Positions 23,776 to 60,444 of a DNA stretch of 64,000 nt are shown here, in pieces; positions within the stretch are counted from its first letter, which is position 1; each line of letters begins with the position of its first letter. The stretch is taken from positions 22,201 to 86,200 of the forward strand of contig MU603998.1 in the NCBI GenBank assembly GCA_025201845.1. The letters are read 5' to 3'. Source of the stretch: Martensiomyces pterosporus. Taxonomy: Eukaryota; Kickxellomycota; Kickxellomycetes; Kickxellales; Kickxellaceae. The position numbers were made by a program, and so were the translations under genes. The notes under the pieces are model-generated. The model did no database searches and was not told where the DNA came from. It saw only the letters and a program-made list of their open reading frames with translations.

Positions 23776-24104
23776 TCCAAAGTAGAGGCATGAAAATGAG
23801 GGAAGGGGCGTGTAAACAAGCCGTCGCCTGCCCGCCGTTTGGGAAAATGCCTCGCTTTGAAAATATCGAGGCTGGACAGATACGGCTACACACTTATGGA
23901 GCAGGCACTTCTGTGGACGAACCGACTCGTTTGCGAACCACAACAGCTCAAATCGAACCGGCTTGCTAGAGCGACGTGTCAAGAGGCAAGTGGCAAGAGA
24001 AGCGGGCAGCAGCGATCACAGACTAGCTCACAGACAGCCCGTGTCCTGTCTTGCCTTCCTTGTTTCCACTCTCAACATCTATGCTGTATGTCTCTGTACC
24101 AATA
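23776..24104. other. Divergent promoter region, PRP17/FKBP
   Basis: 329 bases between the two start codons. I see no TATA box. The PRP17 reading frame stays open through much of it. Confidence 0.45.
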
Positions 24105-24566
24105 ATGAAGCTCCTCGCTCTCTCAACCCTCGTCCTTTTGTGCGCCGCCGGAGCCACCGCCGCTGGCGAAGCAAAGAAGCGCGCTCCGCCCACAAAGCTG
24201 CAAATCGGCGTCAAGTACCGTCCCGACAACTGCCCAATCAAGGCCACGGTGGGCGACAAGGTGGCTGTGCACTACGAGGGCACGCTGTTTGAGGACGGCA
24301 AGAAGTTTGATTCCAGCTACGACCGCAAGGAGCCCATCGAGTTTGTCCTGGGCCAAGGGCACGTCATCAAGGGCTGGGACCAGGGCATCCTTGGAATGTG
24401 CATTGGAGAGAAGAGGATTTTGAAGATTCCGGCTGACCTGGCGTATGGAGAGAGGGGCTCCCCGCCAGTTATCCCACCCAGCTCGGCACTGGTGTTTAGA
24501 ACGGAGCTGGTGGCGATTAATGGAAAGAAGGCGGAAGATGATGACGCTGTGCGCGATGAGCTTTGA
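24105..24566 (+). CDS. FKBP-type peptidyl-prolyl isomerase of the ER lumen (FKBP2-like), RDEL-terminated
   Basis: 153 residues from the ATG at 24105. A signal peptide ([19 protein letters not shown]) is followed by a single FKBP domain of about 105 residues with the usual [27 protein letters not shown] and [12 protein letters not shown] blocks, which line the proline and FK506 pocket. The protein ends in RDEL, an ER-retrieval signal recognised by the KDEL receptor. It should catalyse cis-trans proline isomerisation during folding of secretory proteins, which suits the many secreted products encoded nearby. An earlier ATG at 24051 would add 18 residues before the signal peptide and is less likely. 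Confidence 0.95.
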
Positions 24567-26432: not shown

Positions 26433-27815
26433 CTAGATGTGGGCCTTGTCTGGCAGTGAGACTGGAGCGTCTTCAAAGTGGAGATCCTCATACGCGGGGA
26501 GCGGGGGCATCGATGGGACGTGCCGTGGGTTCTGAGCGAGCGGCTGCGTGTCAAGTATAGGGAATTCAGACCGCGCATCCCACCCTGCCACCAGCTGCTT
26601 GCGATGCTTGCGCCACCGGTAAACGACAAAGAACGCAACGATGACTATAATCGAGGCGATAGGCACAACGGTGGCTATAATGATAACTTGTGAGCGCGAT
26701 AGTTTGCTGGTCTCGACTGGGACTGCAGGGACTGCGACAACACTTGCGGTAGGGGATGATGGGGAGGGCGTGTACATAACAGAAGCTGAACTGTCTATCG
26801 GCGTGGTTGTGGAGACCGGGCCACTAATCAGCGTGGTATTGAAGTTCAGCGGTGTCTGAATGACGCCCTCTCGAGGGTATATGTCGCCTGAAAAGACAGT
26901 TACGTTGGCGATAGTTGTTGATGAAGGCGATGTCGAGTTCATCTTGTACGCAGCATCGGTGTTTGCGACAAATGCCGGATCCTTGATAAATGTCGCCAAT
27001 GTGCGGTTGAGAACACTGTTGGCAAACATGACGTAGCTTGAGAAGAGCGTAAAGTAGCTCGCCTGGTGGCTCGCGGTGCAGATGTCGCTGCCGTAAACAG
27101 CAGAGTGGCTGAATACACCGGCAAGGACAATGTCATTGCCAACGTTGGCGTAGACTGAGCCATATGGTACAGTGCACGACTTGTTGTATGCCTGGCCAGT
27201 CAGGACATTCCCACAGACAAAGTCCTTGGTGTTGGCGCTGTAGATGGCCGACGAGTTGCTGCAGTCGCTGGCTGTTGGGTCTGGTGTCATCACGACCGGG
27301 TTGTTCCACCATGGCTGGTTATTTGGGTTCATTTTCGGGCGCACCGATCTCCGCACAAACGTGACGCTGTCCCAGGACTGGCTGTCCATCGCAATTTGCA
27401 TTGTCCAGCTCTTGCTGGCATTGGTGTTGAACTCTATCACGGCGATGTTGTTTGCGAATGTTTTGGTGTCGTACGACGGATGTATGTGTATCTTCTCTAC
27501 AGGATGCTGCGTGTATGCAGCTAGCACATTGTTGTCAAAGAGGAGCTGGTAGTCGGTGCTGCTGGTTTCGACCTTGCCATTCGAGTCGTAGTTGAGGCAG
27601 CTGGCGGCTATGAACGCAGCACGGTTGTCAAACGGCAGGAACTCGCAGCTGGTTTGCAGTCCGTTCTTGTACAGGACTCCACCAACGGCCTTTTTGATGA
27701 TGTCCGAGGATGTAGGGGGCGCCCGTTTTGTGATTCCAGCCAACCGACTGCCGTGGGTAGTGTGGAGTAGACATGACGTCAAGGTTATGGCGGAGGCAGT
27801 GCGTAGTAGCTTCAT
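26433..27815 (-). CDS. Pseudo-trypsin membrane protein 1 (type I, inactive S1-fold ectodomain)
   Basis: 460 residues from the ATG at 27815. Order: signal peptide (1-22), KR site at 30-31, trypsin-like domain (about 45-270), Ser/Thr/Pro stalk (about 295-372), one membrane helix (about 376-399), basic stop-transfer RWRKHRK, and a 55-residue cytoplasmic tail. The S1 fold is recognised by AASC at 71-73 for the TAAHC position, NNIAVIEF at 122 for NDIAL, and CTVPYGSV at 214 for CxGDSGGP. The catalytic His, Asp and Ser positions are Ser72, Asn123 and Tyr218, so hydrolysis is not expected. It may bind ligands or peptides at the cell surface; function is unknown. The tail has PAYEDLHFEDA, with a possible YxxL sorting motif. 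It is the first of three tandem paralogues. Confidence 0.85.
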   Translation of the reverse strand: MKLLRTASAITLTSCLLHTTHGSRLAGITKRAPPTSSDIIKKAVGGVLYKNGLQTSCEFLPFDNRAAFIAASCLNYDSNGKVETSSTDYQLLFDNNVLAAYTQHPVEKIHIHPSYDTKTFANNIAVIEFNTNASKSWTMQIAMDSQSWDSVTFVRRSVRPKMNPNNQPWWNNPVVMTPDPTASDCSNSSAIYSANTKDFVCGNVLTGQAYNKSCTVPYGSVYANVGNDIVLAGVFSHSAVYGSDICTASHQASYFTLFSSYVMFANSVLNRTLATFIKDPAFVANTDAAYKMNSTSPSSTTIANVTVFSGDIYPREGVIQTPLNFNTTLISGPVSTTTPIDSSASVMYTPSPSSPTASVVAVPAVPVETSKLSRSQVIIIATVVPIASIIVIVAFFVVYRWRKHRKQLVAGWDARSEFPILDTQPLAQNPRHVPSMPPLPAYEDLHFEDAPVSLPDKAHI

Positions 27816-28168
27816 CGTTATTAATGTACAGAAATCAGAGAAAGGGTATCGGAGAGAGCGTATTAGAGGAGACGAGGTGTAGGAGCAGCGAAACGGATGC
27901 AAACGCACGGTTAGACAAGGAGACGCAGGATATATACCGTCTACGCCTATCCGTGGGCTTCTCGGCTTTCTTATCCTGCCGCTCATCCTGTCTATTTTGC
28001 ATTCATTTCGACCGATTGTAGATTGGCAGTCGCATGAAACCTGTATCTGCTATTTTGGGCATGCTAGGATTGGCTTCGCTTGGCGCAAGTCCCATGCACC
28101 GATGCATCGACTGCATTCTGCGATACACCGATTCGCACACAGATACAAATGGATATCTACAGCTCGAC

Positions 28169-28633
28169 CACCAATCGCCGCAGCCGCCTGCCATCGCGTC
28201 TACCGTTTTGCCACTCGGATGATGGAGCGGTGGCTGAATGGCGTAAACATGTGCAGGATGCCGGAGGCAAGAGAGGAGACAGCTGGAAGTGGCAGGAAAG
28301 GCTAACCGGCTTATCTATTTTTCCTTAGNNNNNNNNNNNNNNNNNNNNNNNNNNNNNNNNNNNNNNNNNNNNNNNNNNNNNNNNNNNNNNNNNNNNNNNN
28401 NNNNNNNNNNNNNNNNNNNNNNNNNNNNNNNNNNNNNNNNNNNNNNNNNNNNNNNNNNNNNNNNNNNNNNNNNCACCAATCGCCGCAGCCGCCTGCCATC
28501 GCGTCTACCGCTTTGCCACTCGGATGATGCAGCGGTGGCTGAATGGCGTAAACATGTGCAGGATGCCGGAGGCAAGAGAGGAGACAGCTGGAAGTGGCAG
28601 GAAAGGCTAACCGGCTTATCTATTTTTCCTTAG
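28169..28633. repeat. 160-bp direct repeat on both sides of an N gap
   Basis: 28169-28328 and 28474-28633 match over 160 bases with two differences (T/C and G/C). They abut the two ends of the 145-base N run exactly. The likeliest reading is that two contig ends overlap and were scaffolded without being merged, or that two alleles were placed side by side. A true tandem repeat is the alternative. Confidence 0.9.
28329..28473. other. Assembly gap (145 N)
   Basis: Unresolved bases in the region upstream of pseudo-trypsin 1. The real gap size may be zero or negative given the flanking direct repeat. Confidence 0.99.
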
Positions 28634-28873
28634 CTCCCAACATGGGCATCCCATGACGGAAATCGCCTAACAGCCTTTCTTTGCACCCCATGTCTTTTGC
28701 ATCTGGCCTTGCTGTGGTTGGTTGCGCACAGGTCGGGCCCTTCACGCGCTTGTCGCGGCAATATGCAGCCAGCCTGTAATATGTAAGTCTAATTATATAA
28801 CAGCGAGCAGGCGAAAAATGAACAGGAAACTTGGACAAGCTATTCCACGGAAACAAACACACAAGCACGCTTA

Positions 28874-30265
28874 TTAAGGCTGGTGCTCAGGCAAGGGCTG
28901 CTTGGGCACGTTGCCTGCAAGTGCATCGATGAACTCGATGTCCGCATAGTTTGGCGGCACAGTCTGCCTCACAGAGGCACCGCCCAATTCCCTGGCGAGA
29001 GTCTGGGCGCTGATGTTGCTTCTCTCTCCAAGCGGGTCCCAGCTGGCAGCATTTCGGCGCTTCTTGAGCACCCTGTACGAGAAGAATAGCGCGACGATAA
29101 TTGCAATGGACAAGATTGGGACAACGGTGGCAACTGCAATGGTTTCTCCCCTCGATAGCCCATTGCTGCTTGAGCCTGCTGTAGCAGGATTTACAGAGAG
29201 GGTTGGCATCGCGGGCGAACTGCTTTGCCGTGCGGCAGAACTGTTTACCCCTGTTGAGGTGGGCGTTGCAGATCCGGTGCTCAACGAAGGGGCTGCTGAT
29301 ACGCCTGGGCTCATCAGCTGCTGCAGTACTCCTACGCGTGGAAAAAGGTCGCCGCTCATGGTGGTTGTTCCCTTGATGTTTGTCGCCGTGCCCGTATTCA
29401 TCTTGTAGCTGGCGCTTGCGTTTGTCTTGTATGCCAAGTTGCTAGTGTATGTGTTGACTGTGTGTCCACGCAGGACGCTGTTGGCAAATGCGGTGTAGTT
29501 TGAGAGCAGTGTGTAGTAGCTCAGCTGGTGCCTGTATGCGCAGATGTTGTCTCCGTAGATCACAGTGTGGCTGTAGAGCCCTGCCACCGCCAAGCGCTTG
29601 CCAGAAACGCTGTACAGGCTGCCGAATGGAATCGAACATGCGTTGCTGTTTGGTATTCCTTGCACCGTCCAGTTTCCACAAAGGAAATCGCCCTGGTTGG
29701 CAGCAAACAAGCCCGACGATGCCCTGCAGTCGTCGTCTGTTTCAGTGTGCTCGGCCACCTGCGGGTTGTTCCACACAGATGCGGTTATGTCTCTAAGCGA
29801 CCGCCGCACGTAAATGACGTCAGCCCACGAATTCCTGTCTACTGCAATTTGGTTTGTCCAGTTCACAGTTCCATGCGTGTTAAACTCCACCACGGCAATG
29901 TTGTTGGCAATTGTGTTTGGGTCATAGGCCGGGTGAATGTGTATCTTTTCGATGGGGAGCTGTGCGCGCGTTGTAATTTTGTTGTTGTCAATAGAGACCT
30001 CGTACTTTGTTGTCTCGTTCAGCTGGCCGCTGCTGTAGTCGAAGCAGCTGGCTGCGACAAACGCAGCCATACTGTCGATGGGGATGCACTCGCAGGATGT
30101 CGCCAAGGAGTTTTTAATCAGAAGTGCGCCAACAAAGTTGCCTGTAATGTCTGCATATGAGAACAACTGCTGCGCCTGCTCGTCTGGCTGGTATTTGCCA
30201 TGAACCGATGGGATCACGGCAAGTGCAGAGCATGCCACAGTCAAAAGTGCAGAGATGGGCTTCAT
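28874..30265 (-). CDS. Pseudo-trypsin membrane protein 2 (type I, inactive S1-fold ectodomain)
   Basis: 463 residues with the ATG at 30265. Signal peptide (MKPISALLTVACSALAVIPS), trypsin-like domain from about residue 45, Ser/Thr-rich stalk, membrane helix (about 374-396), basic YRVLKKRR, and a cytoplasmic tail of about 60 residues. Catalytic positions are Ser73 (His site, in AASC), Asn122 (Asp site, in NNIAVVEF) and Phe214 (Ser site, in CSIPFGSL). It shares YVRRS, NTHGTVNW-like and SGDLFPRVGVLQ blocks with its neighbours. The tail motif PPNYADIEFIDA aligns with PAYEDLHFEDA of member 1 and keeps a YxxI signal. It needs no introns. Role unknown; surface receptor, adhesin or protease-inhibitor decoy are possible. 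Confidence 0.85.
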   Translation of the reverse strand: MKPISALLTVACSALAVIPSVHGKYQPDEQAQQLFSYADITGNFVGALLIKNSLATSCECIPIDSMAAFVAASCFDYSSGQLNETTKYEVSIDNNKITTRAQLPIEKIHIHPAYDPNTIANNIAVVEFNTHGTVNWTNQIAVDRNSWADVIYVRRSLRDITASVWNNPQVAEHTETDDDCRASSGLFAANQGDFLCGNWTVQGIPNSNACSIPFGSLYSVSGKRLAVAGLYSHTVIYGDNICAYRHQLSYYTLLSNYTAFANSVLRGHTVNTYTSNLAYKTNASASYKMNTGTATNIKGTTTMSGDLFPRVGVLQQLMSPGVSAAPSLSTGSATPTSTGVNSSAARQSSSPAMPTLSVNPATAGSSSNGLSRGETIAVATVVPILSIAIIVALFFSYRVLKKRRNAASWDPLGERSNISAQTLARELGGASVRQTVPPNYADIEFIDALAGNVPKQPLPEHQP

Positions 30266-30724
30266 TTCCTATGCGGGCGTGGCGGCATTAACCACGGAGT
30301 ACAACTACAAGTGCTGCTAACTATGTGTGTGGAGGCAAAGCATGTGGTAGAAATGAGAAGGCAATGGATGCACAGATCCGACTGCAGCTGCATTTGTATC
30401 TTCATCTCCACTGCCTACTCTGTCTATTCCCAGATGTGTAGCCAGATCGCGCCAGAGGCAAGATGGAGGCATGCATATGTACTATTATTATCATGCCATC
30501 GCTCTTTTCCCCCGAAACAGCAGATCTGCATGTGTATTTACGTTCAGGCAATCTCGGCCATTGATGCCAAGACCAGACAGCGCGTCATTTTAAAAATGAA
30601 CTCTGATCAACAAGCTAATGCTTGGCTTTCCAGTATCAGCCGCATATGGACTCATATCTTTATTACAAATGGCCGGGATAACACGTCATAAGAGCAAAGG
30701 AAGCGAGCTCGCACCCATGGTACA
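30266..30724. other. Intergenic, pseudo-trypsin 2 to 3
   Basis: 459 bases with no gene seen; it carries the promoter of pseudo-trypsin 2 and the 3' end of member 3. Confidence 0.5.
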
Positions 30725-32086
30725 CTACACTTCAGGCGTTTTACCGCTGAGGATGCTTGACTTTGATCCAAAGTCAACGTTGATCTTGAGCTTGGATCTG
30801 GCAAAGCCCTTGAGTGTAGCTAAGGATCCACTGAAATCGTTAGAGTCGTTAAGGTTGTCGTGGCTTTCACGGTCTTCATGGTCTCCATGGTCTTCATGGT
30901 TTTCATGGCCGTCGGGCCCCTCCTCTTTTCGTAGCCACCTGCAGCACAGAATGATGGCCAGCGGTGTAAGAGCAAGAACGACAATTACGCCCGCCATTAC
31001 AGATACGTCCTGTCTGTGCATCGCCTCAGTTGCCACGCGAGTCCTGCTGTAATGCTCAAACAGCGGCGTGATTGTGGCAGTTGGCAGTGTTGCCGAAGAC
31101 GTGGTGATAGCAGAGAGGGTGCTCAGCTGAGTGGCCAGAGCTGCCGAGTTGGTGTTGACCTTTGGCTGTTTCAAGCCCAAATGAGGATACGCATCGCCGC
31201 CATATATGGTAATCTCTGGAGCAGTGGGTGCAGGAGATGCGGGCCGCATCATGTAGTCGGCATCAGTGTTGGGCCTGTAGCTGGGGCTCCTCGTGTACAC
31301 ATCCATGGATCGTCTAAGTACTTTGCAGGCAAACATGACGTAGTCCGTGAGCAAGGTGTAGTAGTGGAGCTGGCTCTTGTCCGCACAGATGGACTTGCCC
31401 GAAGTTGCCGAGTGGCTGTAGATTGCAGCGACTGCCATGTCGTCTCCAGTAAACGCAATGACCGAGCCAAAGGGCATGCTGCACGCAGCATTTAGCACTG
31501 GCTGTGCGCTCCAGTTTCCACACAGGAAATCGGAGGTGTTGGGGGCATAGACTGGAGACGCGCTTTTGCATCCCCTGGCTGACTGCTGGGGCCGCGTGTC
31601 GAGGTAGTGCGGCGCCCAAAACATGGCACTGGCGTCAACCATCGTTCTGCGCACGTATGTCAGGTTGGTCCACGAGTTTCTGTCCAGAGCAATGTAGTTG
31701 TTCCACAGCTTCTGTGCCTGTGTGTTGAACTCTACGATGGCGATGTTGTTGGCAAACGTGCTGGCGTCGTACATTGGATGGACGTGGATGGCTTCGATGG
31801 TGTGCTGCGCGCTGACTGTCTTCAGACTGTTGTCCAGGTAGATCTGGTACACCGTGTCGTTGGCTAGCTGGCTGCCCTGAAAGTCCAGGCAGCTGGCCGC
31901 AATGAAGCCGGCGCGGTTGTCGATGGGGACAATCTCGCAGCTTGTTTGGTAGCCGTTTTTGACCAGCACAGCACCCACCACGCTGCCAATGGTGGCTGAT
32001 GTGACCTCGCGCCGGCGCAGGTCACCTTGGCTGATGCCGAAAACCGACAGTGCAAAGAATGCAAATATGAAAATGCAGTTCACCAT
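30725..32086 (-). CDS. Pseudo-trypsin membrane protein 3 (type I, His/Asp-rich tail)
   Basis: 453 residues from the ATG at 32086 (MVNCIFIFAFFALSVFG signal peptide). The frame is open to 32233, but those 49 residues would place a second hydrophobic stretch ahead of the signal. The ectodomain has the same replaced triad: Ser65 in AASC, Asn114 in NNIAIVEF, Phe206 in CSMPFGSV. YVRRT and GGDAYPHLGLKQ blocks are shared with the paralogues. A membrane helix (VMAGVIVVLALTPLAIILCC) is followed by a tail unlike the other two: about 25 residues alternating His with Asp/Glu (GHENHEDHGDHEDRESHD), encoded by imperfect 9-bp repeats near 30860-30911, and no Tyr motif. The tail could bind metal ions (inference). 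Confidence 0.84.
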   Translation of the reverse strand: MVNCIFIFAFFALSVFGISQGDLRRREVTSATIGSVVGAVLVKNGYQTSCEIVPIDNRAGFIAASCLDFQGSQLANDTVYQIYLDNSLKTVSAQHTIEAIHVHPMYDASTFANNIAIVEFNTQAQKLWNNYIALDRNSWTNLTYVRRTMVDASAMFWAPHYLDTRPQQSARGCKSASPVYAPNTSDFLCGNWSAQPVLNAACSMPFGSVIAFTGDDMAVAAIYSHSATSGKSICADKSQLHYYTLLTDYVMFACKVLRRSMDVYTRSPSYRPNTDADYMMRPASPAPTAPEITIYGGDAYPHLGLKQPKVNTNSAALATQLSTLSAITTSSATLPTATITPLFEHYSRTRVATEAMHRQDVSVMAGVIVVLALTPLAIILCCRWLRKEEGPDGHENHEDHGDHEDRESHDNLNDSNDFSGSLATLKGFARSKLKINVDFGSKSSILSGKTPEV

Positions 32087-33237: not shown

Positions 33238-36060
33238 ATGGCTGGTGTCCAGGGCGGCTTTCAACCTGCACCCAGCGCGGCTGCTTTCCCAAGGCCAAGC
33301 GGGTATGGCACTCTGGGCAGGCGCCAGCGCGTGGTTGCAAACTTTGTCGAGCTGCAGAGGCTCCCACAGGGCCAGATCTACCAGTACGACGTCGACATTG
33401 TGCCAAAAAGCGGGCCGTTCAAAAAGCTGCCGCCGTCTGCCTTCATGCGTAGCGTCTTTGACGATGCGATGCGCCGCCATCGCACCACTAAGCTTAACGG
33501 CATCCCCGTCGTCTACGACACCCGCAAGATTGCCTACGCGCCCAATCAGATCTGCAGGAATGGAGAGGTTCTTCTGTTGGAGGTAAGCCACCAAGCACAG
33601 CAGCGATTGTCACATCGTGCAGTCCTTATAACACAGCACTGTGTGCTTCTCAACAAATACATGACTAGAGCAGAGCATGCTGTGTTTGTGCCATTTATCG
33701 GTCAAGTGATTAACGCGTCATAAACACTTTTGCATCCCCCCTTGCGTTCTCCATACCGTACAACCTGCTTACAGGCAGCACACACGGGCGACGGCCGTGC
33801 AGAGGAGTTCACAGTCAAGATCCAGGAGACTGCGGTAATCGACATGAGCATTCTGTCCGAGTTTGTCAAGGGCAGCGGCATCGTTGACATCGCCTCCATC
33901 CAGCCCGCGCTCACGGCGCTCGATCTGGCGATCGGCTCGGTCGCCAGCTCCGAGATGGTTGGGTTTGGCCGCTCGTTCTTTACGCGTGCCCAGTCGATGC
34001 CCATCTCAGGTGGCCTCGAGCTCTGGCGCGGGTTCTCCCTCAGCGTTCGCCCTGGCGAAGGCAAGATGTACTTGAACGCCAACACTGCTGTCACCAGCAT
34101 GTACGCCTCTGGTCCCCTGCTTGACGGCCTGATGAACGTCCTGAATCTCCGCGACCCTAGCCAGCTCAAGGACGCAATCAGCCAGCACACCATGAGGGAC
34201 CTCAGGCCATACCTGAACGGGCTGGGCGTTGTTGTCAGACACCGCAGCATGCGTGGCCAGCAAAAGTTTTCCGTCAAGGGACTGACCACCAAGCCGCTGG
34301 ACAAGGAGACCTTCGCGTGGGAGGACCCCAGCAAGCCCGGGAGCGAGGAGGTCATCAGTGTTGCGGCGTACTACAAGCGCCGCTACAACATTGCGCTTCG
34401 CTACCCGTTCCTCCCGGGCGTCGTCGGCAAGAAGGGCTCGGCGTTCCCCATCGAGCTGTGCGAGGTTGTCGAGAACCAGCGCTACAAGGGCAAGCTTGAC
34501 GAGAGGCAGACAGCCGATATGGTCAAGTTTGCGTGCCAGCGCCCCAGCGAGAACCAGAACCGCATCATTGACGTCTTGAGGCAGCTGAACCTGGGCCAGG
34601 CACCTGTGATCAAGGCATTTGGCCTGGCGCTACCCAGCAGCCTCACCGAGGTCGAATCGCGTGTGCTGCCGGCGCCTACCATCAACTACGGCAGACAGTC
34701 GCGCGAGGCATCGCTGACTCCCTCTGGCGGCGCTTGGAATATGCGCGACAAGTGCGTGCTGACCTCGGGCATGCCTCTCAAGTACTGGGCCGTTCTCGTG
34801 CTCGCCAACAAGAGGTTTGTCCCGGAGAGCAGCATGCAGCACTTTGTGACCAGCCTTGTCAGGATGTGCAACCAGACCGGGTACAGAATCGAGCAGCCCC
34901 ATCCGCCCATTGCGTATGGCAACCCGAACGCGGACATTTCCCGCGAGATGAGGAAGGCGTGCGACATGATCAGGCTGCCCCCTGGAACCGCCCCGCAGCT
35001 GCTCCTGGTTGTGCTGCCGTCGACCAACACGGTCATGTACCAGACGGTGAAGAACTGCGCCTACACCACGCTGGGCATCCAAACCCAGTGCATGCAGTCG
35101 AAGCACGTGCAGAAGGCAAGCCCGCAGTACTGCGCCAACCTGTGCCTGAAGATCAACGCCAAGCTGGGCGGCACCAACCAGGGCCTGGTGCCCCAGAACC
35201 TGCAGAAAATGGTGCGCATGAAGCCCACGCTGTTCCTTGGATGCGACGTCACGCACCCCGCGCCCGGAGAAGGCGACAGGCCGTCGATTGCGTCGGTGGT
35301 TGGGTCGACTGACCTGATGGGGCTGCGCTATACCGCGACGCTGATCCAGCTGCCATCAAGGCAGGAGCTCGTCAGCAAGCTGCAGGAAGCAATTGTCCGC
35401 CACCTCAAGCTCTTCTTCAAGGGAACCAGGACCAAGCCGCAGCGCATCGTCTTTTATCGCGACGGTGTGAGCGAGACGCAGTTTGCGCAGGTCAGGGACC
35501 GCGAGATCATCGAGATTCAGCGTGCGTGTGCCAGCCTGGAGAAGGGATACAGCCCCGATATAACCTTTTTGGCTGTTCTTAAGCGCCACAACACTCGCTT
35601 CTTCCCTGTCGGACGCGAGGGCGACCGCACTGGCAACTGCGTCCCGGGAACCGTGGTCGACCGTGGCGTGACCCTGCCTGGGATGTTTGATTTTTACCTG
35701 TTTGCGCATGGCGCGATCCAAGGCACGTCCCGCCCCACGCACTACTACGTGCTGCATGACGATGCCAAGTTTACGTCGGATGAGATCCAGCAGCTCACGT
35801 ACCACCTGTGCTACACCTATGCGATCTGCACCCGCTCGGTGTCCCTGGTCCCTCCCGTGTACTACGCCCATCGTGTGGCCGACAGGGCGCGCTGCCACCT
35901 GGTCGACATGGGTGTTGAGTTCGAGGATGCAAGCTCGTTGTCCAGCGGATACTACGGCGGCGTTGGCACCAGGCCTACCAGGACCGAGGAGGAGGCCCGC
36001 AGTATGACCAAGATCATCAGGACCCACGACCGCCTGGACGAGACCATGTACTTCATGTGA
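33238..36060 (+). CDS. Argonaute, slicer-type, one intron
   Basis: Spliced gene: exon 1 33238-33582, intron 33583-33774 (192 nt, donor GTAAGC, acceptor TTACAG), exon 2 33775-36060; phase 0, 876 residues. The junction reads VLLLE|AAHTGDGRAEEF, restoring a normal Argonaute N domain. It has N (from about 20), PAZ (about 300-420), MID and PIWI (from about 570) domains. The RNase H-like tetrad is complete: Asp606 in GCDVTHP, Glu646 in RQEL, Asp678 in YRDGVSE and His814 in YYAHRVADRAR, with spacing 40/32/136 close to human AGO2. It ends TMYFM, near the TMYFA-type end of eukaryotic AGOs. It should bind small RNA and cut targets. Dicer and RdRP are not in this window. Confidence 0.95.
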
Positions 36061-37433: not shown

Positions 37434-38585
37434 ATGTCACATTCAGATATTGTTTCCCAGGCCTCTGAGCTAGCTCGACTTGGGGCCAGAGCGCTACGCG
37501 ACTCGCCCACTAAACGCCCCAATCAGGATGCCGCCAACTACGTAAGCAGCATGCAAGGAATATTGCACAGGTGGGACGTCGTTGGATACGGCTTCTGCAT
37601 TTGCTCGATAGTCTGTTGCGCAATCGTCATTGTCACCAGCCTTGCCCTCGTGCTTAGAAAGCGCAGCCTCCTCTTGCGGCCGTCGTTCCGCCTCTCCGCA
37701 TCGATCGCCGTCTGCGACTTGATATACTGCATATGCCAGCTGCTTGTCTACAACAACAAGTACATGTCATCGCTGCCCGAGCTCCAGCTGCGTGCCATCA
37801 TGTGGATGATGAGCGCCTCCAACTTGACATTTGCCCTCTTGTCAACGTGCATCGGCATCCAGCTCCTGCTGACCATCCTGTTGAACAAGGCACATGTGGC
37901 TGAGAAGCTCCAGCGGTGGTACGAGGTGGCGAGCTTTGCATTTGGATTCATTGTTACCCACCCCAACATGTATTTGTACAAGAAGGTCCGGTGGATCAAG
38001 CAGATCCAAATGTTCAGCGTGGCCTGGAACGCCAGGGACTACTACATCGCTCTCTGGCTGACGGAGTACCTGTGGACATTCGCCTGCATCATTTTCCTCT
38101 TCTTCATTGTCCTCCTCACTTACCTCAAGCTGGCAAACGTGTGGGTTGTTTCGGACAGGGGGTACAATGCGCCTGAGAAGCTCGACCTGCTCGAGTCCAG
38201 CCCGAATCTATCGAGGAACCATATGGTAGAGGAGCATAAGAAGTACGTCCGCTCGGTCACCTTGCGCATGGCGTGCTATCCGATTATCCCCGTGGTGACG
38301 ATGATTTGGCTGGTTATCGCCAACATGAACTTGCAGCCGCCGATTTGGCTCGCTGTCATGGGCAACATCGTGCCGCCCATCCAGGGCACGCTCAACTTCA
38401 TCGTGTATATCATGAATCCGGCATTCGACATGTACAGACGGAAGCTGTTTGGGTTCAGAAAGGGGTCTTCGAGGGGTCGGCCGCATGGCTACCTGCAGAT
38501 GAACGATACAGACACCATGTCACGCTCTGAGGCAACTTTGGTAAATGGCTATCGGGCCAATCTTGGAGACTCAAGATACGCGTAG
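37434..38585 (+). CDS. Seven-transmembrane G-protein-coupled-receptor-like protein
   Basis: 383 residues with the ATG at 37434. A polar N-terminal part of about 48 residues precedes hydrophobic helices at roughly 52-76, 84-106, 118-145, 160-182, 202-232, 268-295 and 300-325. The third cytoplasmic loop is charged and long (KLANVWVVSDRGYNAPEK to EEHKKYVRSVTLRM), and the C-terminal tail is basic then Ser/Thr-rich (RRKLFGFRKGSSRGR). This layout matches the glucose/cAMP-receptor-like GPCRs of fungi and slime moulds (Git3/cAR-like), where the third loop contacts the G protein. The ligand is unknown. There is no signal peptide, as expected for this group. Confidence 0.75.
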   Translation: MSHSDIVSQASELARLGARALRDSPTKRPNQDAANYVSSMQGILHRWDVVGYGFCICSIVCCAIVIVTSLALVLRKRSLLLRPSFRLSASIAVCDLIYCICQLLVYNNKYMSSLPELQLRAIMWMMSASNLTFALLSTCIGIQLLLTILLNKAHVAEKLQRWYEVASFAFGFIVTHPNMYLYKKVRWIKQIQMFSVAWNARDYYIALWLTEYLWTFACIIFLFFIVLLTYLKLANVWVVSDRGYNAPEKLDLLESSPNLSRNHMVEEHKKYVRSVTLRMACYPIIPVVTMIWLVIANMNLQPPIWLAVMGNIVPPIQGTLNFIVYIMNPAFDMYRRKLFGFRKGSSRGRPHGYLQMNDTDTMSRSEATLVNGYRANLGDSRYA

Positions 38586-38948: not shown

Positions 38949-39806
38949 TTAAGTGGCGTAGGTTCTGGCCAAGTACACCTGAGTCAAGCCAGTTGACTGC
39001 ACGATAAAGTCCAGGTGGGCATTGACATGGGTGAACAGCGTGTAGCCATCTGATGTTCCGCAAGTGGCATCCTGGAAGCGCCCTCCCTGGCTATCAAGAC
39101 CAGCAAGATAGTACCCGTTCTGCGCCTGGATAACCACTCCCGTCCCCGAGTCGCCCTTACAAGTGCTGTTTCCAGGACTGTACTTGTTCAGAGTGCAGAT
39201 CTTGGGGCCGTCCGACGACTGATAGTTGCTGTCAAACAGCATGCACCCCTCCTTGTCGCCCACTTGCAGCACAGCGCCCTTCAGCTCAGAGGGCATGGAA
39301 TTCGGGTCGTTGTTGGAGACAGTGGCGCCCCAGCCCAAGGCAACGACTTTGTAGCCAGCAGTGATCTGTCCGTTGTAAATGGAGATTGCCTGGGTGTTCT
39401 TGTCCATCTTCATGTCGGGGACGACAATGATGGCAATGTCGTTCTCGTTGACGTTGTTGGCCGTTTTGGTGTTGTACTGGGGGTGCACAACAATGTTCGA
39501 GGCATTGGTTTGCGTCTGCAGCTTGATGTTGTCGCTGCCGTAGCCCAGAGTTACCTGTGAGGCGGCGTAGGGCTTGTCGTTGTCGTCAGTCATGCAGTGT
39601 GCAGCCGTGACAATGTGGTTTTTCGACAGGATGCTGCCGCCGCAACTAAACGTGACGTCGCCGACGCTGATGGCGATTTTGACGGCAAAGGGCGCGCCGT
39701 TGTCGGGCATGTCAAAGCCGCCGACAATGCGCTTGCCGAGGTCCGCGGGGATGGTCAGCGCGCTGATGGTTGTGGCGGCCGAGATGCAGAATGCAAGGAA
39801 CTTCAT
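38949..39806 (-). CDS. Secreted trypsin-like serine protease (S1), catalytically intact
   Basis: 285 residues. A signal peptide (1-17) and a short propeptide end in GKR26, followed by the mature N-terminus IVGG, the classical activation site. The triad is intact: His70 in VTAAHC, Asp123 in ENDIAII, Ser220 in CKGDSGTG. The third Gly of GDSGG is Thr. The mature domain is about 259 residues, a normal S1 length. The product should be an extracellular endoprotease, possibly self- or Kex2-activated. Local sequence around the triad resembles the three pseudo-trypsins (for example NTKTANNVNENDIA against DTKTFANNIA), which suggests common ancestry inside this lineage. Confidence 0.95.
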   Translation of the reverse strand: MKFLAFCISAATTISALTIPADLGKRIVGGFDMPDNGAPFAVKIAISVGDVTFSCGGSILSKNHIVTAAHCMTDDNDKPYAASQVTLGYGSDNIKLQTQTNASNIVVHPQYNTKTANNVNENDIAIIVVPDMKMDKNTQAISIYNGQITAGYKVVALGWGATVSNNDPNSMPSELKGAVLQVGDKEGCMLFDSNYQSSDGPKICTLNKYSPGNSTCKGDSGTGVVIQAQNGYYLAGLDSQGGRFQDATCGTSDGYTLFTHVNAHLDFIVQSTGLTQVYLARTYAT

Positions 39807-40419: not shown

Positions 40420-41769
40420 TTAGCTTGAGGGCCAGCCGCAAGAAACCGACGTTCCAGATTGGTAGCAAGCAGTTCCAGAGCCGCAGGCCTCCGCGATCCA
40501 CTTGCCGTAGAGGCAGAGGAAGTAGTTGGCGTTCTTGCCAGTCGTGTCGGCGCACTGGTACGTGCCCTCGCCCGAGCAGGGACCGCCGGCAACGGGGCCA
40601 CTGCCGCCAGAGGTAGTCGAGGTAGTGGTGACGGCCGAGGTAGTGCTGGTAGCGGTGGTTGTAGAAGTAGTCGAGGTGGTGACAGGAGACGAGGTGGTCG
40701 TGGTGCTGGTGGTCGTGCTAGTCGTGGTCGATGTGTTGGGGGCAGACGATGTAGCAGTAGTTGTCGTAGTGCTGACAGGAGAAGTACCGCACTTCATGTT
40801 GCTCTTCAGCCAGCTCGACAGGCTCTGGACGTAGGCCTGGTTGTTGGAGTACCACGAGGCATCCCACAGCATGATGCCGCCGAAGGTCGATGGGTAGCTG
40901 GTGTACAGCTGGGTGAGATCGGCCTGGAGAGTCGCCAAGTCAAGGTAGCCGTTGCCAGCAGCGCCCGAGCCAGCAGGCACGCCAACGTAGAGCTTGGAGT
41001 TGGGGTTGGGGTTGCCCTTGGTGAGCGTGTCCCAGCTGGTGTAGTCAAAGTTCCACTGGTTGTTGATGTTGGCCAGGTTGCACGGGTTGTTATAGAACTG
41101 CACGTAGTCATTGTCGATCCAGGAGCCCGACAGAGTCGATCCGAGGTTGCCATCAGGGTAGACGCACTGGGGAGCAGCAGAGATGATGTACTGCTTCGAG
41201 GCACCCTGGAAGTAGGAGCGCAGCTGCGAGATGAATGCAGGGTATCCGGTGTGGTCGCCGCCCTCAATGTCGAGGTCAACGCCGTCCAAGACAGCGTCGC
41301 CGTAGGGGCGGTACTGGTGAGTGCCTCCGAGGAACATGTTCCAGACGGTGTTGGCAAATGCCTGTCCGTCGGAGCTGCTGCTCAGGCCGTATGAGCCTGC
41401 TGCGCCACCGAGGGAGATGACGATCTTCTTGCCTGCGGCCTGGCAGGTCTTGATGTCAGTGCCGATATCGGGGCAGGTGAGTGTGTTGGTGCCGTTGAAA
41501 TTGGTCTCGCAGTGGAATGCGTGGTTCAGAACAGGCAGGCCAGTGAGGTTGAAGTTGATCACGAAGGAGAGGTTGATGATGTCGAAGGTGCTGTCCTGGC
41601 AGTACGCAGCGAGGTTCTTCTCCCAGTTGGCGGGATCGTCAAGATGAGCGCCGCCCCAGGAGTTCTGTCCCCAGTAGGTGACGACGTTGTTGGCGCACGT
41701 CGAGCTGTAGGACGCCATGGCTGTGGCTGCCAGCCCAGTGGCGGCAAGAATGGTGGCGGCTTTGATCAT
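40420..41769 (-). CDS. Secreted GH18 chitinase (class III type) with a C-terminal CBM19
   Basis: 449 residues with the ATG at 41769. Signal peptide (1-19); GH18 barrel (about 25-320) with the SLGG strand and the catalytic DGVDLDIE motif at 162-169, Glu169 being the proton donor. A Ser/Thr-only linker (about 330-390), probably O-glycosylated, leads to a six-Cys domain (CSGEGTYQCADTT, LCLYGKWIAEACG, CYQSG) that matches the CBM19 chitin-binding layout of yeast-type chitinases. The enzyme should hydrolyse chitin in the cell wall during septation or growth, or in prey and substrates. A TATA box lies at 41963-41972. Confidence 0.95.
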   Translation of the reverse strand: MIKAATILAATGLAATAMASYSSTCANNVVTYWGQNSWGGAHLDDPANWEKNLAAYCQDSTFDIINLSFVINFNLTGLPVLNHAFHCETNFNGTNTLTCPDIGTDIKTCQAAGKKIVISLGGAAGSYGLSSSSDGQAFANTVWNMFLGGTHQYRPYGDAVLDGVDLDIEGGDHTGYPAFISQLRSYFQGASKQYIISAAPQCVYPDGNLGSTLSGSWIDNDYVQFYNNPCNLANINNQWNFDYTSWDTLTKGNPNPNSKLYVGVPAGSGAAGNGYLDLATLQADLTQLYTSYPSTFGGIMLWDASWYSNNQAYVQSLSSWLKSNMKCGTSPVSTTTTTATSSAPNTSTTTSTTTSTTTTSSPVTTSTTSTTTATSTTSAVTTTSTTSGGSGPVAGGPCSGEGTYQCADTTGKNANYFLCLYGKWIAEACGSGTACYQSGTSVSCGWPSS

Positions 41770-57531: not shown

Positions 57532-58107
57532 CTAGCAGGTGGTTTCAGCACCAAACATGCCGCCTGCTGCCATTCTGTCGCCATTCCTCCGCCCAGCCTC
57601 CTTCTCCTCCATGATGACTCTCTCCAGCCTAGACGTTAGTAGGATGAGCACCAGTACCTCCTCATCCACCGCCTTGTGCAGCGTCAAGTACCCATCCAAC
57701 GTACTAATGACACAATTGGCCTCGTAGGTAGCAATTTTGTCTCCATTGGAGTTCTTTAGCGTGATGGCGTTGCTGAAAAACGCGTGCTTCCAACAGTACT
57801 TTTTGCCAAGCGAGCTCTCAAATGCCCAGCCGCGGCCACGGCCCTTGTACTCCGCCACCCCTGTGTCGTCGCTTGGCAGGGTAAGGTAGGCGTGTCTCCT
57901 TCGAGTGCTATCGAGTTGGCCGGTTAGAATGGGTGTCTTTGCTAGCCCGGCCAATACGGCAATGTCGCAGTCATTGACGACTGTGGAGTAGCTTAGTGGC
58001 GTTTTGGCGATGTCCACAGCTCGGGTGTGTCGGCCACCGTAAACCTGCGTTTCAATGTCGCCATTGGAGTCTGCCAAGTTCCTGATAAGCGTAAATGTCG
58101 CAGCCAT
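57532..58107 (-). CDS. Uncharacterised intracellular protein, possibly tubby/LURP-like fold
   Basis: 191 residues from the ATG at 58107 (MAATFTLIRNLADSNGD). There is no signal peptide and no membrane helix. Alternating short hydrophobic strands (THAYL-like, AITLKNSNGDKIATYEANC, DGYLTLHKAVDEEVLVLILLTSRLERV) end in a helix, a pattern seen in the small tubby C-terminal/LURP-one or scramblase-like folds of fungal proteins with G-K-x-Y cores (here GRGRGWAFESSLGKKYCWKH). This is a weak structural guess; I do not recognise the family. A TATA element lies at 58211-58219, so a start at 58194 is also conceivable. Confidence 0.65.
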   Translation of the reverse strand: MAATFTLIRNLADSNGDIETQVYGGRHTRAVDIAKTPLSYSTVVNDCDIAVLAGLAKTPILTGQLDSTRRRHAYLTLPSDDTGVAEYKGRGRGWAFESSLGKKYCWKHAFFSNAITLKNSNGDKIATYEANCVISTLDGYLTLHKAVDEEVLVLILLTSRLERVIMEEKEAGRRNGDRMAAGGMFGAETTC

Positions 58108-58590
58108 TGCGCGCTTTTCGTATTGCTGTGGTACGAGTAAACCAGAGTGATGTGTATGCCTGTGTGCGAAGGAGCGTGTAGATGCATGGAGCAAGAGGCA
58201 TCTACCGACCCTTTATACCCACCTTTTCTTGCTGGCACACCAAAGGCGCTAGTTGGCACCCGTCCTGGCTGGACTGGCTGAAGACGCTTCAGCATATCGG
58301 CGCATTATTCTGTGCCGTCTTGCCGGCCGATCCCTGCACAGCAATATGCTACTACAGCCCATTTCATGTTACATACCGTGATTGCAATCAGCGAATCGCA
58401 TTTCCTGTGTGATCCGGATCAAGCCTTCGCCTGAAGCTGATTCAGAAAGAAATAATTTTTTCCTCTAGCTCCAGCAAGCTGCTCTCCGCGGCACAAGAAG
58501 CAGAAGGCAAATTGGTCTGTCCAGTCCTCGGTCTTGCCCCTCTTATTCCCCTTGAAGCACACTAACAGGCCCCCTTTTATCTTTGAAACG
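58108..58590. other. Divergent promoter region, orphan/PUF6
   Basis: 483 bases. TATAAAG (minus strand) at 58211-58219 serves the left gene. No TATA is seen for PUF6. The PUF6 frame is open from a TTG at 58534 but the first ATG is at 58591. Confidence 0.5.
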
Positions 58591-60444
58591 ATGGCGCGCA
58601 TGGATAGCACGGCCAACGGCTCTCGCAGCAAGGCCAAGAGCAAGGGCCCTGACGGCAAGCCCGGCAAATTCGGCAACAAGCAGACGCCCAGCAAGGGCAA
58701 GCACAGCAAAGAGAGCCACCAAGCAGCCAAACAAGAGAAGGCCGAAGGGCAGGGCAGCAAGCGCAAGGCCTTCGAGCAGCCAGCCATTGGATCAACTCCA
58801 CAGGAGTCGCGCCAGCTGCAAAAGAAGCAGCGCCTGGAGCGGCAAATGGCACAGCCCGATGGCGGGCTCAAGGTGGCTGCGCGCAAGCTGTGGGAGCAGC
58901 TGCGTCGCCGCGACCTGGACGAGAAGGTGCGCAAGGAGAAGATGAAGGAGATGATGGCGTTGATTAGGGGCAAGATCAAGGACGTTACGTTCAAGCACGA
59001 TATGAGCAGAGTCATACAGACCTGCATCAAGTACGGCAGCGACGAGCAGCGCGCAGAGATCGCAGAGGAGCTGATGGGCGGGTACTTGGAGCTGTCGAGG
59101 AGTCTCTATGGCAGATACATCTTGATGCGCATGCTGAAGCACTGCCCGAAGTACCGCGGGGAGATCATCAAGGCGTTCTATGGAAATGTGAGGAAGCTGG
59201 TCAGGCACAAGGAGGCGTCGGTGGTTATTGAGGAGTGCTACGCGGTGTATGCGAATGCCGGGCAGAGGTGGAATCTTGTGGCGGAGTTCTATGGCAACGA
59301 GTTTGCCATCTTCAAGGATCAGCCCGCAGCGGGCGATAGCCCAAAGTCGCTGGAGGCCGTGCTGGAGAAGGCGCCGCAGAAGAAGGAAACCATCTTGAAT
59401 ACCCTCAAGACCACCCTGACCCCGCTGCTGGAGAAGGGAACAATCCAGCACTCGATCGTACACAGGGCGCTGCTGGACTACATCAAGCATGCTGAGCCCA
59501 AGGAGAGGCTGGAGATTGTCGAGACGATGCGCGAGCTCGTCGTGGAGATCTTGCACACTCGCGACGGTGCGCAGGCCGGCATGCTCTGCTTGCTGTATGG
59601 AACGCCAAAGGACAGAAAGGCCATTGTCAAGTCGTTCAAGCCCTTCTTGCAGCGCATCTGCTGCGAGGAGTATGGATACGCAGTGCTCATTCAGGCACTG
59701 GATTGCATGGACGATACCGTGTTTATGAACAAGACTATCGTGCAGGACCTTTGCGCAATCGCCAACGAGCTCATTGAGGACAGGTTTGGTCGCCGTGTCC
59801 TGCTTTATATCCTCGCTGGACGCAACCCGCAGTACGTGGGCATTGATGCGCTCAAGGTCCTGAATGAGGGCGACCCCGTTAGGGAGGAGACCAGTAAGAA
59901 GGACCCGACCACCAGACACAGCGAGCTGGCGGCGCATATCTCGGAGAAGATGATCAAGTGGGTGGCCGGGCACCTGCAAGAGGCGATCTTTGACCCGCTC
60001 CCGAGCCAGGCTGTCTCGGAGACCCTTCTGCGTGCCCAGGGCGACAAGTCGGAGGCGTGGGCGGCGGTGCTGGAGCTTGTGAAGGCGGATATCGAGGAGA
60101 GCGGCGAGTCGCATGTCCTGGTCAACCCCATCTCGAACCGCGTCATCACCAACTGCATCATTGCGGAGTATGCGCAGCCGAAGACATCGGACAAGACGCT
60201 GCCGGAGGTCCCCAAGGAGAACCCAAAGTTTGGATCGGATATCCTGGATGCCCTTGTGGAGGCCAAGCAGCTTAAGAGCGCAGCCGTTGCTGGCGCCTTC
60301 CCGGTCCGAGCCCTCCTTGATTCGCCCGTCACTAGCAAGAAGGCAAAGAAGCTCGTCAAGCCATTCAGGGACGACATTAAGAAGGCCATGAAGGGTGCGG
60401 AGAAGAAGCGGGTGTTTGAAGCCATGCTCAGCCACCTCGAGTAA
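58591..60444 (+). CDS. PUF6: Pumilio-family RNA-binding protein Puf6/PUM3
   Basis: 617 residues from the ATG at 58591 (MARMDSTANGSRSKAKSK). A Lys/Ser-rich nuclear-localising tail (1-70) is followed by Puf-type helical repeats (about 110-470), for example MSRVIQTCIKYGSDEQRAEIAEEL and SLYGRYILMRMLKHCPKYRGEIIKAF, then the CPL region. The C-terminus is basic (KKAKKLVKPFRDDIKKAMK). Puf6/PUM3 binds RNA with little sequence specificity and works in large ribosomal subunit assembly in the nucleolus; in yeast it also represses ASH1 mRNA. It is intronless and divergent from the orphan gene. Confidence 0.93.
   Translation: MARMDSTANGSRSKAKSKGPDGKPGKFGNKQTPSKGKHSKESHQAAKQEKAEGQGSKRKAFEQPAIGSTPQESRQLQKKQRLERQMAQPDGGLKVAARKLWEQLRRRDLDEKVRKEKMKEMMALIRGKIKDVTFKHDMSRVIQTCIKYGSDEQRAEIAEELMGGYLELSRSLYGRYILMRMLKHCPKYRGEIIKAFYGNVRKLVRHKEASVVIEECYAVYANAGQRWNLVAEFYGNEFAIFKDQPAAGDSPKSLEAVLEKAPQKKETILNTLKTTLTPLLEKGTIQHSIVHRALLDYIKHAEPKERLEIVETMRELVVEILHTRDGAQAGMLCLLYGTPKDRKAIVKSFKPFLQRICCEEYGYAVLIQALDCMDDTVFMNKTIVQDLCAIANELIEDRFGRRVLLYILAGRNPQYVGIDALKVLNEGDPVREETSKKDPTTRHSELAAHISEKMIKWVAGHLQEAIFDPLPSQAVSETLLRAQGDKSEAWAAVLELVKADIEESGESHVLVNPISNRVITNCIIAEYAQPKTSDKTLPEVPKENPKFGSDILDALVEAKQLKSAAVAGAFPVRALLDSPVTSKKAKKLVKPFRDDIKKAMKGAEKKRVFEAMLSHLE

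Follow-up and report, generated by a model that had tools for sequence, protein, structure and literature searches.

Why should a fungus keep, side by side, three genes for membrane-anchored proteins that resemble trypsin but have lost every residue with which trypsin cuts? This question is raised by a stretch of 64,000 nucleotides (hereafter the window) from Martensiomyces pterosporus (contig MU603998.1, positions 22,201 to 86,200, forward strand), in which three single-exon frames without internal stops lie head to tail on the minus strand between positions 26433 and 32086. An earlier note on this DNA had described them as adjacent genes with a shared architecture, and the reading frames, hydropathy and motifs bear this out. 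Each of the products (P0001, P0002 and P0003; pairwise identity 35-44%) has about 460 residues, comprising, from the N-terminus, a hydrophobic signal, about 270 residues of ectodomain, a stalk with 29-33% Ser/Thr (residues 306-368), one strong hydrophobic segment and a tail of 65-72 residues with a basic start. The longest ATG frame of P0001 begins at 27986, but the Met at 27815 was taken as the start because it opens the apparent signal peptide. The answer towards which we lean, with some reserve, is that the membrane pseudo-trypsins of the Kickxellales act as binding receptors, which would be coupled through a PY motif ([L/P]PxY) in the tail to ubiquitin-dependent internalisation.

The trypsin-like fold of the ectodomains had been read from motifs by eye, and its standing in profile searches is mixed. 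The Pfam family Trypsin appears below the cut-off for P0001 (E 0.015) and P0002 (E 0.0038) and is not among the Pfam matches listed for P0003; among 29 family members, 13 match Trypsin at E<=0.01, and seven further Pfam models match one to three members each. The structural models speak more clearly for the fold. AlphaFold models cover P0002 (15 aligned sequences) and P0003 (29 sequences), and confidence is mostly high over the ectodomains, with ten-residue means of 72-98 apart from a single block of 59 in P0002, and low over the stalks. Foldseek comparison with the Protein Data Bank at E<=0.001 returned 508 chains for the P0002 model and 750 for the P0003 model (lowest E 1.2e-8 and 1.7e-9, respectively), and the best 50 of the 508 and the best 50 of the 750 are all S1A proteases by title. 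The TM-scores, by target length, are 0.39-0.67 and the root-mean-square deviations 4.6-7.5 Å; the chymotrypsin fold is therefore plain though diverged, and the two-barrel arrangement of peptidase family S1A is recognisable in the modelled ectodomains of P0002 and P0003. Six cysteine columns are common to the family and to 13 active trypsins from an alignment described below, each being occupied in at least 22 of the 23 family rows; their pairing as disulphides 42-58, 168-182 and 191-220 is assumed from trypsin.

The catalytic residues have been replaced throughout. All three window proteins carry AASC, NNIA and C-x-x-P-[YF]-G-S, as had been claimed from the letters, and the alignment confirms these motifs. 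The first alignment held 46 S1 rows from this genome and relatives, including 13 active rows, which all retain His57, Asp102 and Ser195, and 23 family rows, in which position 57 is Ser (12), Asn (10) or Ala (1), positions 102 and 194 are Asn and Pro in all 23, position 195 is Tyr (16) or Phe (7), and position 215 is His in 22 and Tyr in one. The zymogen motif [RK][IV]xGG is found in none of the 23 family rows as against 12 of the 13 active ones, which together with the loss of Asp194 leaves the family without the signature of zymogen activation. An extended alignment has 45 family rows (P0020, identical to the C37 query, was excluded beforehand), which represent 43 genes, since the gene models P0028 and P0042 belong to loci that other rows represent. 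Here position 57 is Ser in 29 rows, Asn in 14 and Ala in one, with one gap; position 102 is Asn in all 45; position 194 is Pro in 42 and Ser in one, with two gaps; position 195 is Tyr in 31, Phe in 11 and Leu in one, with two gaps; and position 215 is His in 41, Tyr in three and Asn in one. Catalytic His57, Asp102 and Ser195 are thus each found in 0 of 45 rows (with gaps in 1, 0 and 2), none of these homologues has the original triad, and the proteins are serine protease homologues (pseudo-S1A), that is, members of S1A by homology that lack its catalytic residues. Of the two findings that the earlier note had named as refuting it, neither was obtained, as both modelled ectodomains resemble chymotrypsin and the aligned homologues lack His, Asp and Ser at these positions.

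The earlier note had argued from the recurrence of the same changes in three adjacent copies that a non-catalytic role is under selection. In that form the argument is weak, as paralogues inherit changes together, but the non-catalytic role itself is supported by constraint at the replaced positions over four genera and by the consecutively tagged Dipsacomyces sisters of two of the genes, to which we return below. By conservation among 262 aligned columns, His215 ranks 6th, Pro194 9th, Asn102 14th and Tyr/Phe195 25th; three replaced positions thus stand among the best conserved columns, which a drifting former active site should not do, and this argues for constraint rather than decay. Pairwise comparison of the window genes over the ectodomain gives a dN of 0.46-0.50 and a dS of 1.55-1.89, the latter near saturation, and hence a dN/dS of about 0.26-0.31. 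A family that lost catalysis, then drifted, and whose copies were retained by chance would account for the variability of position 57 and for a remnant in the C115 array, reduced to a tail and interrupted by in-frame stops, which shows that copies do die. It fits poorly with such dN/dS values, with an invariant Asn102 and nearly invariant Pro194 and Tyr/Phe195 in four genera, and with the fact that all 17 loci of the genome are open to a stop after the tail or anchor. Relaxation is accordingly very improbable, and decay of the loci was rejected on column conservation, the residue counts over 45 rows and dN/dS; it is almost certain that selection maintains an inactive protease fold here. One might also suppose that the enzyme was repurposed, with His215, Asn102, Ser or Asn at 57 and Tyr195 forming a new active site of other chemistry, as three of these four positions fall within the 25 most conserved columns. 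They compose no recognisable catalytic constellation, however, position 57 may be either Ser or Asn, and 4 of 45 rows have a residue other than His at 215, so that little credence is given to this scenario.

The three genes of the window, which the earlier note had treated as the family, turned out to be a small part of it. With P0001 and P0002 as queries, 17 loci and the one pseudogene remnant were found in the M. pterosporus genome: three in the window (contig C70), five on C115 (one cut by the contig end), three on C30, two on C37, two on C114 (one cut), and one each on C109 and C40. Fifteen are complete and two are cut by a contig end, and identity to the window genes is 29-45%. An additional member, P0012, lies on a contig absent from the genome-search matches. 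P0031 was rejected as a separate gene, since 81 identical residues overlap the cut C114 locus L067, of which it is the other half. Relatives occur in Dipsacomyces, Kickxella and Coemansia, all Kickxellales; the 9, 10 and 27 rows given by three protein searches come from these genera or otherwise from Martensiomyces or the window itself, and no genus beyond these four is among the matches, though in two of the searches scoring was confined to the 8000 candidates with the most words in common, so that any members outside them would have escaped.

In the wider tree, which has 43 rows (38 of the family and 5 active, after removal of eight that were duplicates, near-duplicates or fragments), the family is set apart from active trypsins at 100/100. 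In the narrower tree, P0001 is sister to P0014 of Dipsacomyces (100/98) and P0002 to P0016 of the same genus (100/99), and these sisters are GGI12_004499 and GGI12_004498, with consecutive locus tags. As neighbours in Dipsacomyces pair with neighbours in the window, the tandem pair is probably older than the split of the genera. Four further Dipsacomyces members likewise carry consecutive tags (001836-001839). In the databases the relatives are named as hypothetical proteins, save two (P0032 and P0041) that are 'Peptidase S1 domain-containing' in UniRef, and the titles and opening abstract lines of the matches listed for openly licensed literature on Kickxellales and on fungal pseudoproteases contain no description of this family.

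What the tail contributes had escaped the earlier note, and the PY motif is new here. It is present in 28 of 39 tails, against a sum of shuffled means of 1.3: the first set has it in 16 of 22 (shuffled mean 0.78, maximum 6 over 20,000 rounds) and the rows fetched later in 12 of 17 (mean 0.53, maximum 5). These counts leave out L065, which has no tail, and L068, a fragment. None of the tails in either set (22 and 17) has the motif in reverse, and the motif itself is absent from all 17 ectodomains of the second set (residues 31-300). The tail opens with a basic stretch and usually has a Trp box (30/39), and the PY motif lies 33-75 residues inside the membrane, in 23 of 28 cases 38-46. In a less redundant set, from which four near-duplicates were dropped, 27 of 35 tails have the motif. 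Of all tail columns, that of its Pro is the best conserved (0.94) and that of its Tyr the third best (0.80); the residue preceding the Pro is Leu in 17 and Pro in 14. This alternation is the degeneracy that Rsp5 WW domains tolerate, as they recognise PPXY or LPXY according to the passages available of PMC2810449 and PMC1557994, the latter of which puts yeast proteins with the motif anywhere at about 4% for PPxY and about 7% for LPxY. All matches of the P0002 tail in the genome down to E 0.003 are members of the family or the remnant; two doubtful places follow at E 0.16 and 0.72.

A candidate partner is encoded in the same organism. On contig C46, three WW domains (59210-59749), in frames that read as typical WW sequences, adjoin a HECT domain (57679-58581) on one strand, and the whole (C46:57679-59749) would be an Rsp5/NEDD4-type ligase if both frames are exons of one gene. 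P0001 and P0002, though not P0003, thus combine a PPxY or LPxY motif in a predicted cytoplasmic segment with a putative WW-HECT ligase in the genome, as would be expected of adaptors or substrates of Rsp5/NEDD4.

A scheme can be proposed in which the altered but constrained cleft, with Asn102, Pro194, Tyr/Phe195, His215 and Ser or Asn at 57, or the surface near it, binds a ligand, a protein or peptide, that it leaves uncut. In the tail, the PY motif would bind WW domains of the organism's own Rsp5/NEDD4-type ligase, and ubiquitination might then cause the receptor and its bound ligand, or else a membrane partner, to be internalised or turned over, much as with yeast membrane Rsp5 adaptors. Tandem duplication and divergence would supply a panel of differing heads on a similar tail. 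It is tempting, if distinctly speculative, to go further and see in the Kickxellales a receptor class in its own right, a diversifying tandem repertoire of dead trypsins whose heads recognise different peptides or proteins, be they of prey, of a partner, of a mate or of self, and whose common PY tail wires them to Rsp5.

Several observations weigh against the receptor reading. Position 57, which belongs to the cleft, ranks only 89th of the 262 columns by conservation. That P0001-P0003 are type I membrane proteins is predicted from their hydropathy. The PY motif is lacking in 11 of 39 tails, namely L036 (P0003), L039, L060, L061, L064, P0010 and Coemansia P0026, P0027, P0029, P0034 and P0036; four of these five Coemansia rows are close copies, and L064 has an LPNY outside its tail. 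L065, on C114, ends at its hydrophobic segment without a tail, in the manner of a protein anchored by glycosylphosphatidylinositol (GPI). The PY-less P0003 must sort or signal otherwise, or partner other members. Moreover, the shuffles overstate significance because related tails are not independent, the ligase depends on joining two frames into one gene, and WW domains occur elsewhere in the genome too, the C46 domains being three of 11 matches.

Wsc and Mid2 proteins likewise consist of a head, a stalk of Ser and Thr, one membrane helix and a tail, which suggests a different role, that of a wall or surface sensor whose pseudo-trypsin head binds wall or matrix and senses stress, with the PY motif serving for turnover only. 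In Pfam, SKG6 weakly matches three of 29 members (E<=0.01, lowest 2.2e-4) and Mid2 one of 15 (E 0.019), which points the same way, but these matches are likely to lie in the membrane region, and the eight Pfam families listed at E<=0.01 for the 29 members include no WSC domain. A chymotrypsin fold, besides, usually works through a protein-binding cleft, and 17 loci at 29-45% identity exceed the set of wall sensors that one would expect. A sensor is therefore unlikely, and the head of Wsc and Mid2 sensors is a different one, whereas the PY-bearing tail belongs to the family here. The features on which the receptor reading draws are collected in Table 1.

Table 1. The three genes of the array and their principal residues, motifs and membrane segments, in window positions.
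Feature	Positions	Strand	Description or basis
Gene 1, P0001	26433..27815	-	460 aa; signal peptide, inactive trypsin-like ectodomain, Ser/Thr stalk, predicted TM (transmembrane) helix, tail with LPAY
P0001 Ser72, position 57 (His in active trypsins)	27600..27602	-	alignment
P0001 Asn123, position 102 (Asp in active trypsins)	27447..27449	-	alignment
P0001 Pro217-Tyr218, positions 194-195 (Asp-Ser in active trypsins)	27162..27167	-	alignment
P0001 membrane helix core, residues 377-395	26631..26687	-	hydropathy
P0001 PY motif LPAY, residues 439-442	26490..26501	-	motif scan of tail
Gene 2, P0002	28874..30265	-	463 aa; architecture as P0001; tail with PPNY
P0002 Ser73, position 57	30047..30049	-	alignment
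P0002 Asn122, position 102	29900..29902	-	alignment
P0002 Pro213-Phe214, positions 194-195	29624..29629	-	alignment
P0002 His233, position 215 (family-specific His, 22/23 rows)	29567..29569	-	alignment
P0002 membrane helix core, residues 376-394	29084..29140	-	hydropathy; helix 372-407 in AlphaFold model
P0002 PY motif PPNY, residues 437-440	28946..28957	-	motif scan of tail
Gene 3, P0003 (= L036)	30725..32086	-	453 aa; architecture as P0001; tail acidic, His-rich, without PY motif
P0003 Ser65, position 57	31892..31894	-	alignment
P0003 Asn114, position 102	31745..31747	-	alignment
P0003 Pro205-Phe206, positions 194-195	31469..31474	-	alignment
P0003 membrane helix core, residues 363-381	30944..31000	-	hydropathy; helix 360-387 in AlphaFold model

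Catalysis has been lost elsewhere in the same genome too, as several inactive groups indicate: at least 27 trypsin-fold genes lack a complete triad (17 of the family, four of a T group and six GPI-like), compared with at least 14 that have one (13 aligned, and L015). The T group (L012, L014, L016 and L019, on C204, C184 and C18) has lost His57 and Ser195 but keeps both Asp102 and the zymogen motif, with an acidic residue (Asp or Glu) retained at 194; its members have a membrane helix and a tail unlike that of the window family, and form one clade (100/98) among the active trypsins (88/87). Three of its loci share their tail with a frame at C204:8434-8901, and a search with the L012 tail recovered L012, L014, L016 and that frame down to E 5e-7 and then doubtful places at E 0.04 and 0.07. 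A common origin of the family and T-group tails is unsupported (hhalign of 22 and 3 rows; probability 4.8%, P 0.008); a LAxELGG-like stretch is found in both. Among the GPI-like proteins, L018, L020 and L021 (C45 and C104) group with the active L004, L009 and L010 at 99/99; in these three, position 57 is Asp, Glu or Lys, position 102 is Asn, and position 195 is Ala or Gly.

The trypsins with a complete triad, one of which lies 7 kb from the array at 38949-39806 on the minus strand, invite one more reading, that the inactive surface heads are decoys that occupy and internalise inhibitors or substrates that might otherwise affect the trypsins which the fungus itself secretes. Service as decoys is a recurrent theme among inactive proteases. 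Pro194 and the bulky residue at 195, on the other hand, would alter the loop that canonical inhibitors contact, so that standard inhibitors may not fit, and decoys are judged improbable, a notch below sensors. The receptor reading remains the preferred one.

Other features of the window may be noted briefly. Between genes 1 and 2, a 160-nucleotide repeat (28169-28328 and 28474-28633, 99% identical) flanks a run of N and is possibly an assembly duplication at the gap. The minus strand at 45688-48078 matches the alpha, insertion and barrel domains of a B12-dependent (class II) ribonucleotide reductase, unexpected in a fungus, and among the literature matches listed for this enzyme in fungi no paper is on fungi by title. 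At 40420-41769 (minus) lies a secreted protein with a GH18-like DGVDLDIEGG stretch seen by eye, a Thr-rich linker and a Cys-containing C-terminus, with no Pfam match at E<=0.001. The plus strand encodes an Argonaute with PAZ, Mid and Piwi domains (33844-36060), a multi-pass membrane protein that is receptor-like by eye (37434-38585), and an FKBP isomerase with a signal peptide and a C-terminal RDEL, an endoplasmic reticulum-type form (24081-24566). Scans for bacterial promoters and for tRNAs gave nothing of use.

On the more speculative view of a receptor class, an early-diverging fungus would have made an enzyme fold the basis of recognition by many genes. Inactive trypsins serve signalling and defence in animals, and the Kickxellales possess a large set of their own, predicted to be membrane-anchored. 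As the PY tail predicts a definite partner, what was a 'hypothetical protein' becomes a testable question of ligands and of sorting by Rsp5.

Among known systems, the animal serine protease homologues are the nearest in their head, as they too have S1A homology with the catalytic residues replaced. In the honey bee, cSPH50 has TTANC and NIAM, the same kinds of change as here, and some homologues are membrane-associated, cSPH50 and SPH54 having a transmembrane region, according to the part of PMC1761132 available. The animal proteins, however, are multidomain, with the homologue domain last in the architectures examined there, whereas here an N-terminal head is followed by a predicted type I anchor and a PY tail. 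The tail finds its counterpart in the yeast membrane adaptors Bsd2, Tre1/2, Ear1, Ssh4 and possibly Rcr1/2, which act with Rsp5, as stated in the excerpted text of PMC2810449. Among those membrane proteins membership is established by experiment, whereas the likeness of the present family to an adaptor or substrate is one of sequence. We know of no yeast Rsp5 adaptor with a trypsin-fold ectodomain. Commissureless (Comm) and PRRG4, unlike the fungal family, are animal proteins, and their ectodomains are unrelated to it. Comm is single-pass with L/PPxY motifs, the PY motifs of Comm and PRRG4 bind Nedd4, and Comm lowers surface Robo, according to the portion consulted of PMC5578492. Ecm14 is likewise conserved in fungi and shows no detectable activity although it belongs to a peptidase family (PMC7706225, in extract); it differs in that this family is that of the M14 carboxypeptidases and in being secreted, processed and encoded by one gene in Saccharomyces cerevisiae. 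Inactive trypsins as such are thus already known, and what appears to be new is a fungal multigene set of predicted type I membrane pseudo-trypsins with putative WW-ligand tails.

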